Assembly: GCA_028289245.1 (NCBI GenBank)
Contig: JAQGGT010000006.1
Span: forward strand, 80,948-144,947
DNA: 64,000 nt
Direction of reading: 5' to 3'
From: Candidatus Saccharimonadota bacterium
GTDB lineage: Bacteria; Patescibacteriota; Saccharimonadia; Saccharimonadales; UBA4665
The notes beneath the pieces were generated by a model. That model ran no database searches and had not been told where the DNA came from. It saw only the letters and a program-made list of their open reading frames with translations. The translations under genes were made by a program, and so were the position numbers. The first letter of the stretch is position 1. Each line of letters opens with the position of its first letter. Shown in pieces: positions 49,449 to 63,485 of the stretch.

Positions 49449-50439
49449 ACCTTTTTTTGTCTTGGCACCGATGGACGACGTGACGGACACCGTGTTTCGG
49501 CAGATTGTGGCTGGCACGGCCGCGCCGGATTTGTTTTTTACGGAGTTTGTAAACGTTGATGGCTTGCAGTCGGTCGGACGACCGAAGTTATTAAAGAAGT
49601 TGCGATTTGTGCCGAGCGAGACACGCCTGGTGGCCCAGCTGTGGGGGCTCAAGCCGGAGAACTTTAAGGCAGTGGCCGCGCAAATCGCTAGCGGCGAGCT
49701 GGCCCGCGAACTCGGCTTACCGGAGGGCTGCAATTTCGTTGGCGTCGACCTAAACATGGGCTGCCCGGCCAAAAGCGAAGTCCAGAACGGCGCCTGCAGC
49801 GCGCTGATCAAGCTCGAGAACCGCGACCTGGCCAGTGATATCATCGAGGCGACCCGCGAGGGGCTAGCCGGCCGCTTGCCGCTAAGCGTCAAAACCCGCC
49901 TGGGTTTTACCGAAGTCGATATGACGTGGTTTGAATTTTTGCTCGGCAAACAGCTCGATAGTATTACGGTCCACGGCCGCACCCGTCGCGAAATGAGTAA
50001 GGTGCCGGCGCACTGGGATCTAATCGGCGAGGTCGTTACGCTGCGCAACAGGCTAGGTGCCAAGACGCTGATCGTTGGCAACGGCGACGTCATGACGCGC
50101 CAGCAGGGCAGTGCATTAGCTGCGACGCACGGCCTTGACGGCATTATGATTGGCCGCGGCATCTTCCAGGATCCGTATGTGTTTGCGACTAACAGCCCAT
50201 GGCCCGAGCAGACCGCAGCAGCCCGCGTTCGGCTCTATCGCCAACAGGTGCAGCTCTTCAAAGACACTTGGCAGAACCGCGAACGCAATATTCTCAGCCT
50301 TAATCGCTTCTGCAAGGTCTATGTCAATGGTTTTGACGGCGCCAAAGAACTGCGCGAGCGGCTGATGGCGTGCACTAATGCCGAAGATTCACTGGCCATC
50401 ATGGATGAAGCGCTGACTGTGGCAGAACTTACAGCGTAG
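49429..50439 (+). CDS. dus: tRNA-dihydrouridine synthase
   Basis: 336 residues from GTG 49429. APMDDVTDTVFR binds FMN, NMGCPAK holds the catalytic Cys, and VHGRTRRE and IGRGIF follow the Dus family. It reduces uridine to dihydrouridine in the tRNA D-loop with FMN and NADPH. It overlaps the preceding gene by 20 bases. Confidence 0.92.
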   Translation: MLPELPKPFFVLAPMDDVTDTVFRQIVAGTAAPDLFFTEFVNVDGLQSVGRPKLLKKLRFVPSETRLVAQLWGLKPENFKAVAAQIASGELARELGLPEGCNFVGVDLNMGCPAKSEVQNGACSALIKLENRDLASDIIEATREGLAGRLPLSVKTRLGFTEVDMTWFEFLLGKQLDSITVHGRTRREMSKVPAHWDLIGEVVTLRNRLGAKTLIVGNGDVMTRQQGSALAATHGLDGIMIGRGIFQDPYVFATNSPWPEQTAAARVRLYRQQVQLFKDTWQNRERNILSLNRFCKVYVNGFDGAKELRERLMACTNAEDSLAIMDEALTVAELTA

Positions 50440-50490
50440 TCGACACAGTTTGCTATAATTCGGCCATAAGCCCGTAACAGAGGAGCATGT

Positions 50491-51141
50491 ATGGATGCAG
50501 CCGGCAGTGCAGATTTACAGGAAGCGATTGAGCGTGCACCCTATGAAGGGGTGTTTGATCCGACCGGTCTACATCACGAGTTTAGCAGCGGCATGCACGG
50601 CCAAAAGCTCGATCTGGACAAAATTCCGACCGACAGCCCGCTGTACTACAACTGGATCAGTTCTATCTCTAATTTTCTGTATAGCGAGTACGACGAGCTG
50701 CCGCAGGCAGTAGTGGGCGTGGCCCGAGGTACTAATCGGGTGGCCCTGAGTGTCGCCGAGCGGCTACAACATCAAACGGAGATTATTGGCGTCGAGTCCA
50801 CCAAGGCGCCGGATGGCCGGGTGTACCTGAGCGCCTACGCCAGCAAATTATTATTTGAAGCTGAACCGCAGTCACTGGTAGTCGTGGAGGACGTGGCCAC
50901 CTCTGGCTACAATGCCGGTTTGGTTGCCAGCGCCGCTCAACGGCTGCACATCCCCCGCGTGTCAGTGCTCAACACCTGGCAGCGCCGCCCGCAGCTCGAG
51001 CGGCTTGCTGAAGCCGGCATCCCCTATAAATCGATGATTCATGAATATTTGCCGACCTATTCGGCCGAGGATTGCGCCCGGACGGGTTTCTGTGCTCAAG
51101 GCTGGCGGCTGATTCCCTACCCGCGCGCTGTCAGCGCCTAA
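50491..51141 (+). CDS. Phosphoribosyltransferase family protein
   Basis: 216 residues from ATG 50491, with an AGAGGAG site 6-8 bases upstream and TATAAT further upstream (a leadered message). VVVEDVATSG is the PRPP-binding loop of type I phosphoribosyltransferases. The N-terminal helix and the C-terminal Cys pair (EDCARTGFC) are unusual; orotate or purine PRTase relatives are likely. Substrate not assigned. A TGC-rich ending could bind metal. Confidence 0.78.
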   Translation: MDAAGSADLQEAIERAPYEGVFDPTGLHHEFSSGMHGQKLDLDKIPTDSPLYYNWISSISNFLYSEYDELPQAVVGVARGTNRVALSVAERLQHQTEIIGVESTKAPDGRVYLSAYASKLLFEAEPQSLVVVEDVATSGYNAGLVASAAQRLHIPRVSVLNTWQRRPQLERLAEAGIPYKSMIHEYLPTYSAEDCARTGFCAQGWRLIPYPRAVSA

Positions 51142-51151
51142 TTTTGGGCAC

Positions 51152-51278
51152 AAAAAAAGCAGAGAGGGGCAGGACGGCGAAAGATGTGAGTCGCTACGTG
51201 ACAACAATCTGCGCCGAACCTCGACCCATCTCTGCTTGAGGCGGCTGGCCGATGTAAAAATGGACAGCAGCCTTAAGC
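51152..51278 (-). ncRNA. Putative structured ncRNA with its own promoter and terminator
   Basis: On the minus strand, TATAAT (51285-51290) should start a ~127-base RNA. It has hairpin 1 (AGGCUGCUGUCC pairing with GGCCAGCCGCCU, two mismatches) and then a long rod: AAGCAGAGA pairs with TCTCTGCTT, with inner helices GGG/CCC, AGG/CCT, CGGCG/CGCCG and AGAT/ATCT separated by small internal loops. The closing stem runs into seven U residues, as in a terminator. No ORF. It lacks the SRP GGAA-loop motif and the 6S central bubble, so I cannot assign a known class. Confidence 0.6.
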
Positions 51279-51363
51279 AGTAGTATTATATAATCGTGAT
51301 TTTGTCACCTGTAGTTTAATGCAATCGCGCTTTATACAAGCGTGTATTTTGTGTGATAAAATA

Positions 51364-51394
51364 CTTGACATTGTTTGTCAAGAAAGTGTATAAT
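51364..51394 (+). promoter_or_regulatory. Promoter with palindrome over the -35 box
   Basis: TTGACA (51365-51370) and TATAAT (51389-51394), spacer 18. CTTGACA-TTGTT-TGTCAAG (51364-51382) is a perfect palindrome over the -35 box, likely a repressor site. Transcription would start near 51401 and meet a terminator within 40 bases. Confidence 0.7.
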
Positions 51395-51410
51395 TCAAGT
51401 TGCTAAATCG

Positions 51411-51444
51411 AAACGGTCATCTTCGGATGGCCGTTTTACTTTTT
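51411..51444 (+). terminator. Intrinsic terminator right after a promoter
   Basis: AAACGGTCATC-TTCG-GATGGCCGTTT: an 11-bp stem (one G-U pair) with a UUCG tetraloop, then TTACTTTTT. It would end the transcript from the 51365 promoter after about 45 bases. It also lies just past the stop of the minus-strand NYN gene. Confidence 0.75.
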
Positions 51445-52045
51445 AAAGAGGTATTGCTCTGTGCTGGGCTACCGATTCAAGGTTGTACAGGTTGATGCCG
51501 CCGTCTTTATCAAGCTGTTTCAATTTGCCCGATGTCAGCAAGCTAGCAGGGTATTTGAGTGGCGAGAATACCTGTACCTTTTTATGCAACTGGGACACCA
51601 CAAATTCGTATAAATAAGTAAAGTCGCCATCTCCCGAGAACACGATGACTTCATCGCACTCATCCGTAAGGCAGGTTCGCGTGACGTCAACCGTCAATTC
51701 GGCGTCGCAGTTTGCCTTAGACTTGTCGCGTAAATGCTCCTCGTGAATAAAATGGGTTTTGCACTCGGGGCAGTCAACCTCTATATCAACAACTTTGCCT
51801 TCGAACACCTGTACCGGCTTGACCTTCATCTCGTAGCCCAAGTTCGACAAGCCCTTATACTTGTTTGCCCGTGCCGTGTCACCGTCGACGAGACCGACGT
51901 ATAAGAAAACCTTCTTGACGTTCTTTTTATTTTTTAGCCACCAGTAAAACTTTACGTAATCGACATTCTTGTAACCCATCGCCCGAAAGGCTTTGAAGAG
52001 GTTCTCGCCGTCGATGAAGGCATACACGGTTTGCTGGTTAGTCAT
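51443..52045 (-). CDS. NYN-domain (LabA/DUF88-like) protein with zinc-binding insert
   Basis: 200 residues. FIDGENLF and EVIVFSGDGDF give the Asp residues of the NYN/PIN-like nuclease fold; the C-terminus ends in PSSLL-like PAS-LLTSGKL. Between them (~90-125) an insert with CPECKTHFIHEEH and later Cys residues looks zinc-binding, unusual for this family. Probably an RNA-binding or RNA-cutting protein. TATAAT is 8 bases before ATG (leaderless) and GCACAA-AAGC-TTGTGC (52061-52076) is a likely operator just upstream of the -10 box. Confidence 0.8.
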   Translation of the reverse strand: MTNQQTVYAFIDGENLFKAFRAMGYKNVDYVKFYWWLKNKKNVKKVFLYVGLVDGDTARANKYKGLSNLGYEMKVKPVQVFEGKVVDIEVDCPECKTHFIHEEHLRDKSKANCDAELTVDVTRTCLTDECDEVIVFSGDGDFTYLYEFVVSQLHKKVQVFSPLKYPASLLTSGKLKQLDKDGGINLYNLESVAQHRAIPL

Positions 52046-52060
52046 TGTCGGCTATTATAG

Positions 52061-52076
52061 CACAAAAGCTTGTGCG
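52061..52076. promoter_or_regulatory. Palindrome upstream of the NYN gene
   Basis: GCACAA-AAGC-TTGTGC is a perfect 6-bp inverted repeat lying directly upstream of the minus-strand TATAAT (52054-52059), the position of a spacer operator. Confidence 0.5.
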
Positions 52077-52141
52077 GTATGAGTTTTTGTTGCAGAATAA
52101 GTCTAAGCATAACCGTTGTAAAGTCTGTGATTGTTGGTAGT

Positions 52142-52196
52142 GTTCGTTTCGCTCTCGCTAGAGCTCATCGGTACGACTCAAAATTCGTAGACGAAC
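52142..52196 (-). ncRNA. Hammerhead ribozyme A (type III), core changed at one base
   Basis: Read on the minus strand: stem III GUUCGU/ACGAAC, cleavage triplet GUC (between 52190 and 52189), stem I UACGA/UCGUA closed by an 8-base loop, core CCGAUGA, stem II GCUCU-AGCG-AGAGC, then GAAA. All elements are in the hammerhead order. The usual CUGAUGA reads CCGAUGA here, so U4 is C, which is expected to weaken cleavage. It lies ~80 bases past the stop of the gene at 52279-52878 and right after the clamp arm 52199-52212. Confidence 0.85.
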
Positions 52197-52198
52197 AA

Positions 52199-52212
52199 AC
52201 AAGCAAACAAGA
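52199..52212 (-). repeat. 3' clamp arm of the Nfu-like gene
   Basis: On the minus-strand RNA this reads TCTTGTTTGCTTGT and is perfectly complementary (14 bp) to the 5' leader arm at 52912-52925. It lies 2 bases before the hammerhead stem III. A small hairpin (CACGG-TTG-CCGTG) and GCAAC-AGGA-GTTGC lie between it and the gene stop. Confidence 0.75.
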
Positions 52213-52278
52213 GAAACAACGGGAAAACACACGGCAACCGTGACCCATGCAACTCCTGTTGCTTGCTTGCCCGGTGTG

Positions 52279-52878
52279 CTAGTTGCTCCAGTGCCAGGGT
52301 TCATTCGCGAACTGCCGCAGGTGCAGGCCGGGGGTATCCGGCGGGGGCGGGGGAAGCAGGCCGCCGAGGGGGCGCTGGGGCTGCTCGTGGGGGCTGACCG
52401 CCTGGCCGACGACGGTTTCCCGTGAGGGGAGCTGGTCGCGGAGCCCGATCTGGTCTTCGAGCGTCCTGAAGCTGCTGAGCTGGCTGAGGTCGAAGACCTC
52501 GTCGGTGTCGCTGAGCATGTCCTCCAGCTTCGGCAGGGCGACCATGATGAAGTCGTCCGTCTCGTGGCCGGTGTAGCGGGTGATGGCTTGCACGATGAGC
52601 GGTTCGACGTCGGACCAGTTGCTGGCGAAGTCGATGGTGACGCTCACCATGTGCGGCTCGATGACCAGGATGCTGATCCCGGGGATCTCCTCGAGCCAGG
52701 TGATGAGCGGCTGGACCTCGCTGCCGGCACGAGGCTGGTTGGGCTTGTAGGGCAACTGGCCGCCTTCGCTGCCGAAGACGCTCTTGTAGTAGCCGTCGCT
52801 GATCTTGAGGCCGAGCTGGTAGTCGCGGGTCTGGCCGATGATGCCGGTGCTGACTGCGACGAGGAGCTTGTTGCTCAT
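52279..52878 (-). CDS. Nfu N-terminal-like domain protein on a hammerhead-ended transcript
   Basis: 199 residues behind a CTGGAGTC site. LITWLEEIPGISILVI followed by MVSVTIDFASNWSDVEPLI resembles the Nfu/NifU N-terminal domain (GV-xxV...I-V-T-W..L-p-I), though the Fe-S-binding CxxC domain is absent. A Pro-rich stretch (PPPPPD) and a short tail follow. Codons are strongly C/G-ending and unlike neighbours, suggesting transfer. Its mRNA has a 5' arm pairing with a 3' arm beside hammerhead A. The Nfu assignment is tentative; the RNA architecture is clear. Confidence 0.7.
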   Translation of the reverse strand: MSNKLLVAVSTGIIGQTRDYQLGLKISDGYYKSVFGSEGGQLPYKPNQPRAGSEVQPLITWLEEIPGISILVIEPHMVSVTIDFASNWSDVEPLIVQAITRYTGHETDDFIMVALPKLEDMLSDTDEVFDLSQLSSFRTLEDQIGLRDQLPSRETVVGQAVSPHEQPQRPLGGLLPPPPPDTPGLHLRQFANEPWHWSN

Positions 52879-52911
52879 GATGACTCCAGGGTTGTGGGTG
52901 GGGTGTCTCGA

Positions 52912-52925
52912 TCTTGTTTGCTTGT
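52912..52925 (-). repeat. 5' leader clamp arm of the Nfu-like gene
   Basis: On the minus-strand RNA this reads ACAAGCAAACAAGA, fully complementary to the arm at 52199-52212. Upstream in the leader is a small hairpin GGAG-TCAT-CTCC, mirroring the hairpin-then-arm order of the other ribozyme-ended genes. Confidence 0.75.
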
Positions 52926-53025
52926 GAGGTGCTTTGGAGATGACTCCTAAACGGTATTATTTTACGATAAATATGCTAATAAGTCAAAGCTCGCCAGTAG
53001 CGGCAGCCTGGGCTACAATATGAGG

Positions 53026-60474: not shown

Positions 60475-60564
60475 GTGTAGCTCCGCGCTACACACAAACG
60501 ATAAAGATGTGCTGTGCTTCGCGCACACCAGATTCCCCACCAGGGAATCAACATCTTTATCGTT
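60475..60564 (+). ncRNA. Structured RNA directly upstream of hammerhead D
   Basis: Hairpin GTGTAGC-TCCGC-GCTACAC (60475-60493), then arms AACGATAAAGATGT (60497-60510) and ACATCTTTATCGTT (60551-60564), a perfect 14-bp helix enclosing TGTGC/GCACA and GATTCCC-CACCA-GGGAATC hairpins. The right arm ends 2 bases before ribozyme stem III. It repeats in miniature the hairpin-arm-insert-arm-ribozyme order of the three gene-bearing copies. Confidence 0.8.
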
Positions 60565-60565
60565 A

Positions 60566-60634
60566 CGGCTCCATGCGTTTGGCGCATGCTGACGAGTCCA
60601 CCCGCAATTCACCGGGTAGTAAGGACGAAAGCCG
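60566..60634 (+). ncRNA. Hammerhead ribozyme D (type III), plus strand
   Basis: Stem III CGGCU/AGCCG, cleavage triplet CUC (after 60571), stem I CATGCG-TTTGG-CGCATG, core CTGACGA (60589-60595), stem II GTCC/GGAC extended by ACCCG/CGGGT with an AGTAA bulge, then GAAA (60627-60630). All conserved hammerhead core bases are present; position 7 is C, which is tolerated. It lies on the strand of the PP2C-kinase-hydrolase-vWA operon, 136 bases after its last stop. Confidence 0.92.
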
Positions 60635-60657
60635 AAAACTCAGATAAATAATAAGTG

Positions 60658-62226: not shown

Positions 62227-62235
62227 GTAGTTTCA

Positions 62236-62290
62236 GTTCGTTTCGTCCTGTTTGGACTCATCAGTACGACTCACAATTCGTAGACGAACA
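62236..62290 (-). ncRNA. Hammerhead ribozyme B (type III)
   Basis: Minus strand: stem III GUUCGU/ACGAAC, triplet GUC (cleavage between 62283 and 62282), stem I UACGA/UCGUA with an 8-base loop, core CUGAUGA (62258-62264), stem II GUCC-AAACA-GGAC, GAAA (62241-62244). This is a full consensus hammerhead. It lies ~95 bases past the stop of the gene at 62387-62689 and directly after the clamp arm 62291-62305. Confidence 0.95.
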
Positions 62291-62305
62291 TGACAAGCAG
62301 ACAGA
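62291..62305 (-). repeat. 3' clamp arm next to ribozyme B
   Basis: TGACAAGCAGACAGA on the plus strand; the minus-strand RNA is perfectly complementary over 15 bases to the leader at 62773-62787. One base separates it from the ribozyme's stem III. Confidence 0.85.
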
Positions 62306-62386
62306 ATAAAAACAAAAGGAATACACGGCAGCGGCCATGACAACCTAGCGTTTGTATTCTCTCCACTTGTCATGTGCGCCGATCAG

Positions 62387-62689
62387 CTACAGGCCCTTAG
62401 CCGCGCCACCACCAAAGGCACCGATGCCGAGCAGGAAGCCGAAGTTGTACCAGCCATGCTGGTTGGGCGTCTGGTACATGGTGTACTTGTCCTTGAACAG
62501 ACTCACGATGAAGTCCGGAAGGGCGAAGAAGCCGTGGACCAAGCCCCACCAGAAGTTGGTGTGAGCGGTGGGAACCGGACGCGGTGAGTAGTCCTGAAGG
62601 TACCAAATGAACACCAGGACGTAGGCCACGACGATGACGAGACCGACGAGTCCGACACTGACAGAAGTAGTGCGTCGGTGGGTTGACAT
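62387..62689 (-). CDS. Small two-segment membrane protein on a hammerhead-ended transcript
   Basis: 100 residues from ATG 62689 behind a TGGAGA site. Two membrane segments (~12-32 and ~78-96) with an external loop containing HTNFWWGLVHGFF and a GGGAAKG end. C/G-rich codons unlike nearby genes. No recognised family. The leader between the clamp arm and the ribosome site has two more perfect hairpins (GTAGGGCTA/TAGCCCTAC and CTTGGAA-TGG-TTCCAAG). Confidence 0.65.
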   Translation of the reverse strand: MSTHRRTTSVSVGLVGLVIVVAYVLVFIWYLQDYSPRPVPTAHTNFWWGLVHGFFALPDFIVSLFKDKYTMYQTPNQHGWYNFGFLLGIGAFGGGAAKGL

Positions 62690-62772
62690 GATTTCTCCAG
62701 ACCTCGTACTTGGAACCATTCCAAGTAGGGCTAGCAGCACTTTCCGCCAAAATGCTCATAGCCCTACTCGGA

Positions 62773-62787
62773 TCTGTCTGCTTGTCA
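62773..62787 (-). repeat. 5' leader clamp arm, gene B
   Basis: Reverse complement of 62291-62305. It sits directly after a leader segment also found in gene C's leader (62788-62815 resembles 63416-63443), which contains a GAGC/GCTC hairpin. Confidence 0.85.
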
Positions 62788-62863
62788 AAATGCATCCGGA
62801 GCGGTGGGCTCAACAGAATAGCCACAATATAGAATAAAAATGACAAGTACGCAATGAGGTAGC

Positions 62864-62916
62864 GTTCGTTTCGCTCTACTGGAGCTCTTCAGTACGACTT
62901 ATATTCGTAGACGAAC
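62864..62916 (-). ncRNA. Hammerhead ribozyme C (type III)
   Basis: Minus strand: stem III GUUCGU/ACGAAC, triplet GUC (cleavage between 62910 and 62909), stem I UACGA/UCGUA with a 7-base loop, core CUGAAGA (position 7 is A, tolerated), stem II GCUC-CAGUA-GAGC, GAAA. It ends the transcript of the gene at 62963-63367 and lies before the leader of gene B. Confidence 0.93.
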
Positions 62917-62917
62917 A

Positions 62918-62933
62918 TGACAAGCAAGGATAG
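62918..62933 (-). repeat. 3' clamp arm next to ribozyme C
   Basis: TGACAAGCAAGGATAG on the plus strand, perfectly complementary over 16 bases to the leader arm 63400-63415 of the same transcript. Confidence 0.85.
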
Positions 62934-62962
62934 GGGATAGAATACGGAACTCCGTATCCCGC

Positions 62963-63367
62963 TCAGCCTCGCTTGTCTAGATTCGTCTGCGCTACTACGT
63001 GGTAGGGGAAAACCCATTCGTAGGCAATAACGAGAGCCGTCGGTACTAAGGCCCCATCGGCGAGCATGGTTGCGAATAACCAGGTGCTGTTGGTCTCGTC
63101 GCGTGAGCCGATCCAGCCGACCAAACCTGTCACCAGCACATAGATACACAGTACGATGAGCCGCCTGGAGAGCGAAAAGCTGGCGGTCGACCAAAGCAGT
63201 GCACCGGACACGAGGATGAGCGGTACCGCTAAGATCGCGCAGGTCGCGGGGTCGTGGTAAAGCGTTGAGTCAATTGGTACGAGCGAACACAGCAAGCCTA
63301 GTAGCATGGCACAGTAACCGAGCATTCGAGCGTTCTTGCCGTATTCTGAGCGAGTGATGCTGGTCAT
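62963..63367 (-). CDS. Four-segment membrane protein on a hammerhead-ended transcript
   Basis: 134 residues, ATG 63367 behind an AAGGA site. Four membrane segments (~15-35, 42-62, 68-90, 100-122) with short loops and a positive C-terminus. No family recognised. It is the middle member of the tandem B/C ribozyme modules. Composition is less extreme than that of the Nfu-like gene. Confidence 0.65.
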   Translation of the reverse strand: MTSITRSEYGKNARMLGYCAMLLGLLCSLVPIDSTLYHDPATCAILAVPLILVSGALLWSTASFSLSRRLIVLCIYVLVTGLVGWIGSRDETNSTWLFATMLADGALVPTALVIAYEWVFPYHVVAQTNLDKRG

Positions 63368-63399
63368 GACGGTTGTCCTTAATAGGAGGGAGGAGAGTT

Positions 63400-63415
63400 C
63401 TATCCTTGCTTGTCA
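63400..63415 (-). repeat. 5' leader clamp arm, gene C
   Basis: Reverse complement of 62918-62933. It follows a leader segment shared with gene B (GTTGAGCC, GATGCAT and TTTGACAAGC elements). Confidence 0.85.
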
Positions 63416-63485
63416 AAATGCATCTGGAGCGGTGGCTCAACAGAACAAGCCTATAGTGTCATAAAAGCCTATAGATATCAATAAG

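Follow-up and report, generated by a model that had tools for sequence, protein, structure and literature searches.

Ribozyme-ended genes B, C, and D in the window have complementary ends

The locus studied here raises the question of whether an mRNA that ends in a predicted self-cleaving ribozyme would have its 5' and 3' ends paired to each other, and what such pairing could do. The window, which is the whole 64-kb stretch of DNA that was analysed, contains the hammerhead units A, B, C, and D. A preliminary description had proposed that in B and C the bases directly before ribozyme stem III are perfectly complementary to the 5' leader of the same gene, and this is exact in position and in pairing: the arms of B (62291-62305 with 62773-62787) are complementary at 15 of 15 positions and those of C (62918-62933 with 63400-63415) at 16 of 16. 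We searched the entire 64-kb window for exact inverted repeats at least 12 bases long that span 200-2600 bases. Of the 20 found, that of C (16 bases) is the longest and that of B (15 bases) the second; three 14-base repeats come next, one of which consists of the arms of unit D (52199-52212/52912-52925). Units B, C, and D all lie on the minus strand. By sequence, B and C each form a transcription unit of their own, composed of a -10-like box, a short hairpin, the 5' arm, one small gene, the 3' arm, and a hammerhead with stem III open. The features of the units are as follows.

62826-62831, minus strand: B, -10-like box TATATT, read from the sequence; predicted start site just before or at the hairpin
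62795-62817, minus strand: B, 5' leader hairpin TCTG-TT-GAGC..GCTC-CGGA, of the same form as in other units
62773-62787, minus strand: B, 5' clamp arm TGACAAGCAGACAGA
62720-62772, minus strand: B, long leader hairpin between arm and gene, from a computed fold
62387-62686, minus strand: B, gene for a 99-aa protein matching phrog_30702 (unknown function; E 2.4e-9), with a weak DUF6524 match below the cut-off
62351-62380, minus strand: B, local competitor strand, a weakened copy of the 5' arm right after the stop codon
62291-62305, minus strand: B, 3' clamp arm, adjoining ribozyme stem III
62234-62291, minus strand: B, type III hammerhead ribozyme, predicted cut between 62283 and 62282
63450-63455, minus strand: C, -10-like box TATAGG, read from the sequence
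63423-63444, minus strand: C, 5' leader hairpin TCTG-TT-GAGC..GCTC-CAGA
63400-63415, minus strand: C, 5' clamp arm TGACAAGCAAGGATAG
62963-63367, minus strand: C, gene for a 134-aa protein
62965-62987, minus strand: C, local competitor strand, inside the last codons of the gene
62918-62933, minus strand: C, 3' clamp arm
62862-62918, minus strand: C, type III hammerhead, predicted cut between 62910 and 62909
52931-52952, minus strand: D, 5' leader hairpin, after a -10-like TAAAAT at 52959-52964
52912-52925, minus strand: D, 5' clamp arm ACAAGCAAACAAGA (minus-strand reading, 52925 to 52912)
52279-52878, minus strand: D, gene for a 199-aa protein, weak Nfu_N match (E 5.5e-4), below the cut-off
52199-52212, minus strand: D, 3' clamp arm
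52140-52198, minus strand: D, hammerhead with core CCGATGA instead of CUGANGA (U4 changed), possibly inactive
60497-60637, plus strand: A, hammerhead (60563-60637) and a purely local 14-bp stem (60497-60510 with 60551-60564)

Unit D (52140-52964, minus strand) keeps its clamp although its hammerhead core is changed and its ribozyme is possibly dead. Unit A (60475-60640, plus strand) follows a gene that we take to be VWA-like, and its 14-bp local stem encloses two small hairpins.

A family of predicted type III hammerheads

The 1.22-Mb genome was scanned with a pattern for hammerhead cores, with the reversed pattern as a control, and 42 core-like matches were found versus 11 for the reversed pattern. 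In stretches of this genome, 25 complete hammerheads could be parsed that have a CUGANGA...GAAA core and in which stem III is open while the other two stems, I and II, are closed. A covariance model, R1, was built from 24 copies of this genome including B and C; unit A was omitted for its long stem II. R1 scores B at 66.8 bits, C at 62.8 bits, and D, which is outside the training set, at 60.4 bits. A Rfam search of the window gives no family at its gathering score: RF00008 matches B at 45.0 bits (E 9.4e-8), just under the gathering score of 48.5, and the C hammerhead has no RF00008 match in the Rfam listing up to E 5. By fold, the predicted ribozymes of B and C are type III hammerheads. In the R1 alignment (24 sequences, without unit A), 99.2% of the cells in 15 pairs are paired and 13 of the 15 pairs show changes on both sides, and one of five covariation measures, the number of further pair types, fails to exceed shuffles (24 versus 26.4). 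Self-cutting by these hammerheads is predicted from the sequence.

R1 detects 29 hammerheads in the genome of the window (E 0.01 or better) and none in the five other genomes of the genus. At least one match is also present in 22 of 60 genomes with this genome counted (E 0.001) and, at E 1e-6, in 90 of a sample of 392 genomes from the order and in 37 of a sample of 379 from the phylum; these three counts were made with stricter filters than the count for the genome of the window. This genome is likely that of a Saccharibacterium, as the closest named relative of a protein of the window, at 81% identity, comes from a Candidatus Saccharimonadales bacterium. The ribozyme pattern has seven matches in unrelated genomes, about the chance expectation, and none in the viral_contigs set, on which ground a virus source was rejected. 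At G000:C4:82740-82882 (L044/L152), two convergent hammerheads have a common terminator-like hairpin between them, so that each ribozyme would sever the terminator.

The arms of clamped units match each other and covary between genomes

The clamp score is the best Watson-Crick match that the 29 bases adjoining stem III have in the upstream region, and dinucleotide shuffles served as the control; one unit (G047:C17:369) was left out, and 90 of 91 units were kept. A score of at least 12 is reached by 31 of the 88 units whose upstream sequence is long enough, versus 0.25 expected from shuffles, and a score of at least 10 by 48 of 88 versus 4.9 expected, so that about 5 of the 48 clamped units are expected by chance. 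The other 40, which the preliminary description missed, have no clamp at a score of at least 10, and the clamp is therefore not required for every ribozyme. Unit A is among the 40: no long-range partner above a score of 9 was found for it between 54001 and 60460.

Units of the same genome have TGACAAGC in common, which makes an exchange of upstream regions among units a fairer control than shuffling. In all 84 units with at least 1400 bases upstream, taken without selection, the mean score is 9.99 with the unit's own upstream region and 7.48 (sd 0.13) with those of other units (z 19), and the excess is present both in the 28 units of this genome (z 8.6) and in the 56 units of other genomes (z 15.7). 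An earlier swap (590 versus 299.8, sd 12.7) was biased, its 48 units having been picked for a good match of their own. The results bear out the statement in the preliminary description that each arm pairs with its own partner even where sequences differ: very different arms, such as GATAGGTGTTTGT, TAACAAAGTAGT, GACAAAAGAAAGTGTGA, and AGTTGGATATAT, each remain complementary to their own partner.

That description had also suggested looking for covariation of the arms in homologous modules from other genomes, and such covariation was found. One gene, present in 2 of 246 genomes of the order, is common to G000:C4 and G023:C15 (37% identical) and has a ribozyme and a clamp in both genomes; the two arms differ, TGACAAGTAAACAGAGA and TTAATAAGTAGACTC, and pair with their own tails at 17 of 17 and 15 of 15 positions, respectively. 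The pairing pattern marks the clamp as a conserved RNA pairing whose arms covary between genomes. The few differences within the clamp itself (25 over 626 positions in 45 units) show no wobble bias, with 5 of the wobble type and 10 of the mirror type.

Three units (C6:141699, C6:143186, and C1:259856) had been assigned a leader other than the nearest in the arm-pairing, shuffle, and local-fold sets. The own leader of C6:141699 pairs with one G·U, and nearer leaders lie at 144275 for C6:143186 and at 260547 for C1:259856. These three units were dropped from the clamp and second-helix swaps, the start-codon distances, the count of clamp differences, and the stem III costs, and were kept in the biased swap, the local-fold counts, the leader fold z, the stop-codon distances, and the two-state energies. 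A second long-range helix was rejected as a general feature because of its weak swap signal (z -3.0 for all units and -1.6 for this genome); single units show one.

The leader upstream of the 5' arm

The 5' arm follows a hairpin that often has the form P1-TT-P2 (CTTTG TT GAG..CTC CAAAG and similar). When the 39 bases at the arm are folded, the mean z over 48 units is -1.7, with 29 of them below -1, and the hairpin variants TCTG/CAGA, TTTG/CAAA, and TTCG/CGAA preserve the pairs, as read from the sequences. An alignment of leader sequences placed the hairpin poorly. In many units, a -10-like box is seen by eye a few bases upstream of the hairpin, and the hairpin would therefore be the 5' end of the RNA. 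This agrees with the earlier proposal of an mRNA that begins with a small hairpin. Transcripts starting downstream of the 5' arms, which had been named as evidence against the clamp, are not indicated either, as the predicted starts lie upstream of the arms. The long leaders in L032, L034, L038, L106, L115, and L124 share, by reading, a second hairpin ACAARGTGAG..CTCAYYTTGTGT.

A start codon was picked by rule for 43 of the 45 units, and it lies downstream of the start of the arm by 20-299 bases, with a median of 124. Three units have a distance of 20-23 bases, and in a few the likely ribosome-binding site falls in or at the arm.

A weakened local strand as a predicted competitor for the 3' arm

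A second strand that can pair with the 3' arm is found between this arm and the stop codon, and it resembles the 5' arm in weakened form. In 16 of 28 units, 4-18 bases separate the stop codon from this local strand; over all 28 the values run from -25 to 58. Comparison of the pairing of each tail with its own and with swapped local strands gives a z of -19 over 89 units, and the effect is similar in the 29 units of this genome (z -12.3) and in the 60 units of other genomes (z -12.4); the last 9 bases alone show a weak complementarity to the local strand (z -2.7). Among the 120 differences of the local strand from a perfect complement, 68 are of the wobble type (G·U) and 8 of the mirror type (A·C), a count limited to 710 positions in the 32 units with a clear local match. 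The tail, as read from these pairings, has a near-perfect distant partner and a weakened copy of that partner nearby. The G·U tuning of the local strand could instead serve to avoid long perfect DNA palindromes.

In 29 of the 48 clamped units, the local fold holds at least 70% of the clamp strand, and in the other 19 it holds less than 70% of the arm. At least 5 of the 7 stem III bases are also in the local fold in 16 of the 48. In unit C, the local strand lies inside the last codons of the gene, and a ribosome there would therefore uncover it.

The two states were compared by computed energies in the 16 clamped units of this genome. With the cost of loop closing excluded, the two-state energies lie within 5.4 kcal/mol of each other in 13 of the 16 units, and in C6:32496 the local state is favoured by 11 kcal/mol; the counts of stem III pairs in the clamp state include pairs that do not belong to stem III. 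Without the clamp, the stem III pairs are absent from the lowest-energy fold in 13 of the 16. When the 3' arm is occupied, the cost of forming stem III drops in 13 of 13 units of this genome, from a median of 6.1 to 1.8 kcal/mol (from 4.7 to 1.7 in B and from 6.1 to 3.1 in C), a drop that arises partly by construction, since the removal of a competitor cannot but favour stem III. Even then, the true stem III is in the lowest-energy fold in only 2 of 13 units (81674 and D); B and C are among the units whose stem III strand remains paired locally, with up to 5.0 kcal/mol needed to free it, in fold models that omit the tertiary contacts of the hammerhead.

Clamps without ribozymes and the genes between the arms

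A pattern for the leader has 35 matches, of which 10 were read: two belong to ribozyme units, five are clamped without a ribozyme, and three have no partner. The five units, all of this genome (the first unit of L187, and L188, L190, L191, and L193), have the leader and a clamp of 12-16 bases with no ribozyme match, and in L188 the clamp is followed by a terminator-like hairpin and a T run. With five clamped units that have no ribozyme, the clamp cannot serve solely to switch ribozymes, and it must do something by itself; protection of the ends fits both these ribozyme-less clamps and the changed core of D. The preliminary description missed these units, as it did the G·U-weakened local competitor.

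Homologues of the B gene are present in 3 of 392 genomes of the order, the genome of the window included, and those in G001 and G157 are 51% and 47% identical, respectively. Neither of these two genomes has an R1 match, and an inverted repeat of at least 11 bases flanking the B homologue is absent from both within about 600 bases upstream and 500 bases downstream; in G001, the copy has an ATG only a few bases past its -10-like box. These comparisons indicate that the module goes with the context of the gene and not with the gene. In G001, a dusB-like gene ends 55 bases from an ABC-transporter-like gene, and between the two the genome of the window has an NYN-like gene and unit D (50424-53014; L092); the names NYN, dusB, and ABC transporter are our presumptive assignments, made by reading the sequences.

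The cargo is diverse. Among 90 units, only seven pairs have similar cargo at E 0.001, of which one is an artefact of a leader that its two units share and two are under 20 residues long. The C protein matched only itself in 5.8 billion proteins, and Pfam and PHROGs gave almost nothing for the cargo proteins tried, which are about 60-306 aa long by rough calling. The D cargo (52279-52878, minus strand) and the cargo of G000:C6:32496 weakly resemble the N-terminal domain of Nfu/NifU, with E values of 5.5e-4 and 0.02, below the cut-off. In all, about 29 mostly unrelated stretches of this genome end in a predicted hammerhead, and about half of them would be clamped to their own predicted start.

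Proposed mechanism and alternative explanations

From the arms, their covariation, the hammerhead fold, and the G·U-weakened second strand for the 3' arm, all of which are present in the sequence, we infer the start sites, the ribozyme activity, an order of events, and a protection of the product. Our preferred reading, to which we give an even chance, is that the clamp displaces the local hairpin, probably switching self-cutting on, and that the ends are paired in the cut mRNA. Transcription would start at the leader hairpin, and the nascent tail would fold first onto the weakened local strand, which in the overlap units of this genome would also cover most of the stem III strand and hold the ribozyme off. 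The better-matching 5' arm would then displace the local strand, stem III would form, and the ribozyme would cut. The product would be a linear mRNA that begins with a hairpin, finishes in a 2',3'-cyclic phosphate, and has its two ends kept together by a helix of roughly 10-17 base pairs, and it would not be ligated by RtcB, which is missing from the 20 genomes searched; the paired ends, the hairpin, and the cyclic phosphate would together be likely to protect it from exonucleases. Because the 5' arm would be needed to free stem III, cutting would take place mainly on messages that still have their own 5' end. We also put forward, tentatively and as a possibility on the unlikely side, that the whole is a transferable module of Saccharibacteria in which a leader (start-site hairpin and arm) and a tail (weakened local strand, arm, and hammerhead) are attached to unrelated orphan genes and make self-cutting conditional on an intact 5' end of the message itself.

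If this is true, the ribozyme would sense mRNA integrity, and bacterial mRNAs would form closed loops without protein. A 5' arm that switches the ribozyme on would mean, in a group of bacteria with small genomes, a protein-free joining of mRNA ends, with cutting mainly of two-ended messages. The 29 copies in one genome and further copies in relatives, all of a common architecture, offer a concrete and cheap test, namely whether the 5' arm switches the ribozyme, and the module could provide a design for RNA devices to be used in laboratory strains.

The ribozyme might instead always cut, with the local hairpin and the clamp both burying the new 3' end and giving a long-lived mRNA without any switch. 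The clamps that occur without a ribozyme (five units) or with a changed core (D) speak for protection of this kind, as do the local hairpins that exist where the arm is not overlapped and the local helix that, in 8 of the 29 units with overlap, extends right up to the cut and takes in the final base ahead of it. We nevertheless judge it somewhat unlikely as the whole explanation, since it leaves unexplained why the 3' strand can pair in either of two ways that exclude each other, with a near-perfect partner or with a G·U-weakened one, and why 16 of 48 units have their stem III covered by the local strand. The tail might also repress translation by folding back on the leader and hiding the ribosome-binding site, as in icaR or hok, with cutting or refolding freeing translation. 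Regulation of translation by 5'-3' pairing is described for icaR (PMC3868564), and the three units with a start codon 20-23 bases from the start of the arm would suit such a role. In the majority of units the arm misses the start codon (median 124 bases, 43 of 45 units), on which ground we reject hiding of the ribosome site as a general role, and we hold fold-back repression to be improbable; leader structure beyond the arm could still hide the site.

It is very improbable, in our view, that the units are a small mobile element with the arms as its terminal inverted repeats in the DNA. Such an element would account for the patchy distribution of the units (none in the five other genomes of the genus versus 29 in this one) and for the stretch with unit D and the NYN-like gene that is missing at the matching place in G001. 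Against it, one arm has the promoter and leader hairpin on its outer side and the other has the ribozyme there, the arms vary between units of the same genome, the downstream flanks have no common sequence by eye, and the wobble-type differences of the local helix suggest RNA pairing, though the clamp's own differences do not. Least probable of all is ligation of the cut mRNA into a circle, the outcome that the preliminary description had linked to RtcB. The clamp would bring the two ends close, and this would favour a circle. RtcB needs a 5'-OH end, which a primary transcript does not have, and the predicted 5' end here is a start site and not a ribozyme product. RtcB itself was sought in 20 of the 22 genomes with a ribozyme among the set of 60, the two weakest (G012 and G022) having been left out; it is missing from all 20, and we reject circularisation by this ligase.

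Comparison with known systems

In the type I toxin mRNAs hok, with its fold-back inhibition, and AapA1, with its long-range interaction, the 5' and 3' ends pair and 3' processing alters the fold; these systems involve processing by exonucleases, very short toxins, and antisense RNA. In the units described here, the ribozyme and not an exonuclease would make the end, and the cargo of about 60-306 aa is unlike a very short toxin. Retrozymes and viroid-like circular RNAs use type III hammerheads with two cuts and circularisation. The type III hammerhead is common to them and to the present units, which have one cut each and occur in genomes without RtcB (0 of 20); retrozymes are described in PMC6155905. 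A transposon with terminal inverted repeats is likewise not what is found, as the arms differ within a genome and both promoter and ribozyme stand outside them.

Hammerheads beside small non-conserved genes have been described before in bacteria. For those in prophages, processing into single-gene mRNAs has been proposed, and circular or spliced products were sought and not detected (PMC3088659, PMC6155905). The purpose of bacterial hammerheads is called an open question in PMC6155905. The known bacterial type III hammerheads (RF00008) by small non-conserved genes share with the present ones the same core, the three stems, and the open stem III; the available parts of these accounts do not mention 5'-3' complementarity, a leader hairpin, or a competing strand, features that recur across units here. 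The icaR mRNA of Staphylococcus aureus, whose 3' UTR pairs with its own 5' UTR, resembles the clamp units in this respect (PMC3868564). It is a single gene with a short motif over the Shine-Dalgarno region, and its abstract mentions no ribozyme, whereas dozens of genes are involved here and the arm is, with a few exceptions, away from the likely ribosome-binding site (median of 124 bases between the start of the arm and the start codon, 43 units).

Searches of open-licence papers found none on hammerhead or self-cleaving ribozymes in Patescibacteria, Saccharibacteria, or the candidate phyla radiation, and no report of a hammerhead combined with a 5'-3' clamp. Hammerheads near small genes and the 5'-3' pairing of a single mRNA are each known; their combination, for which these searches gave no report, is what the units described here present, and a ribozyme switched by the 5' arm would go further.
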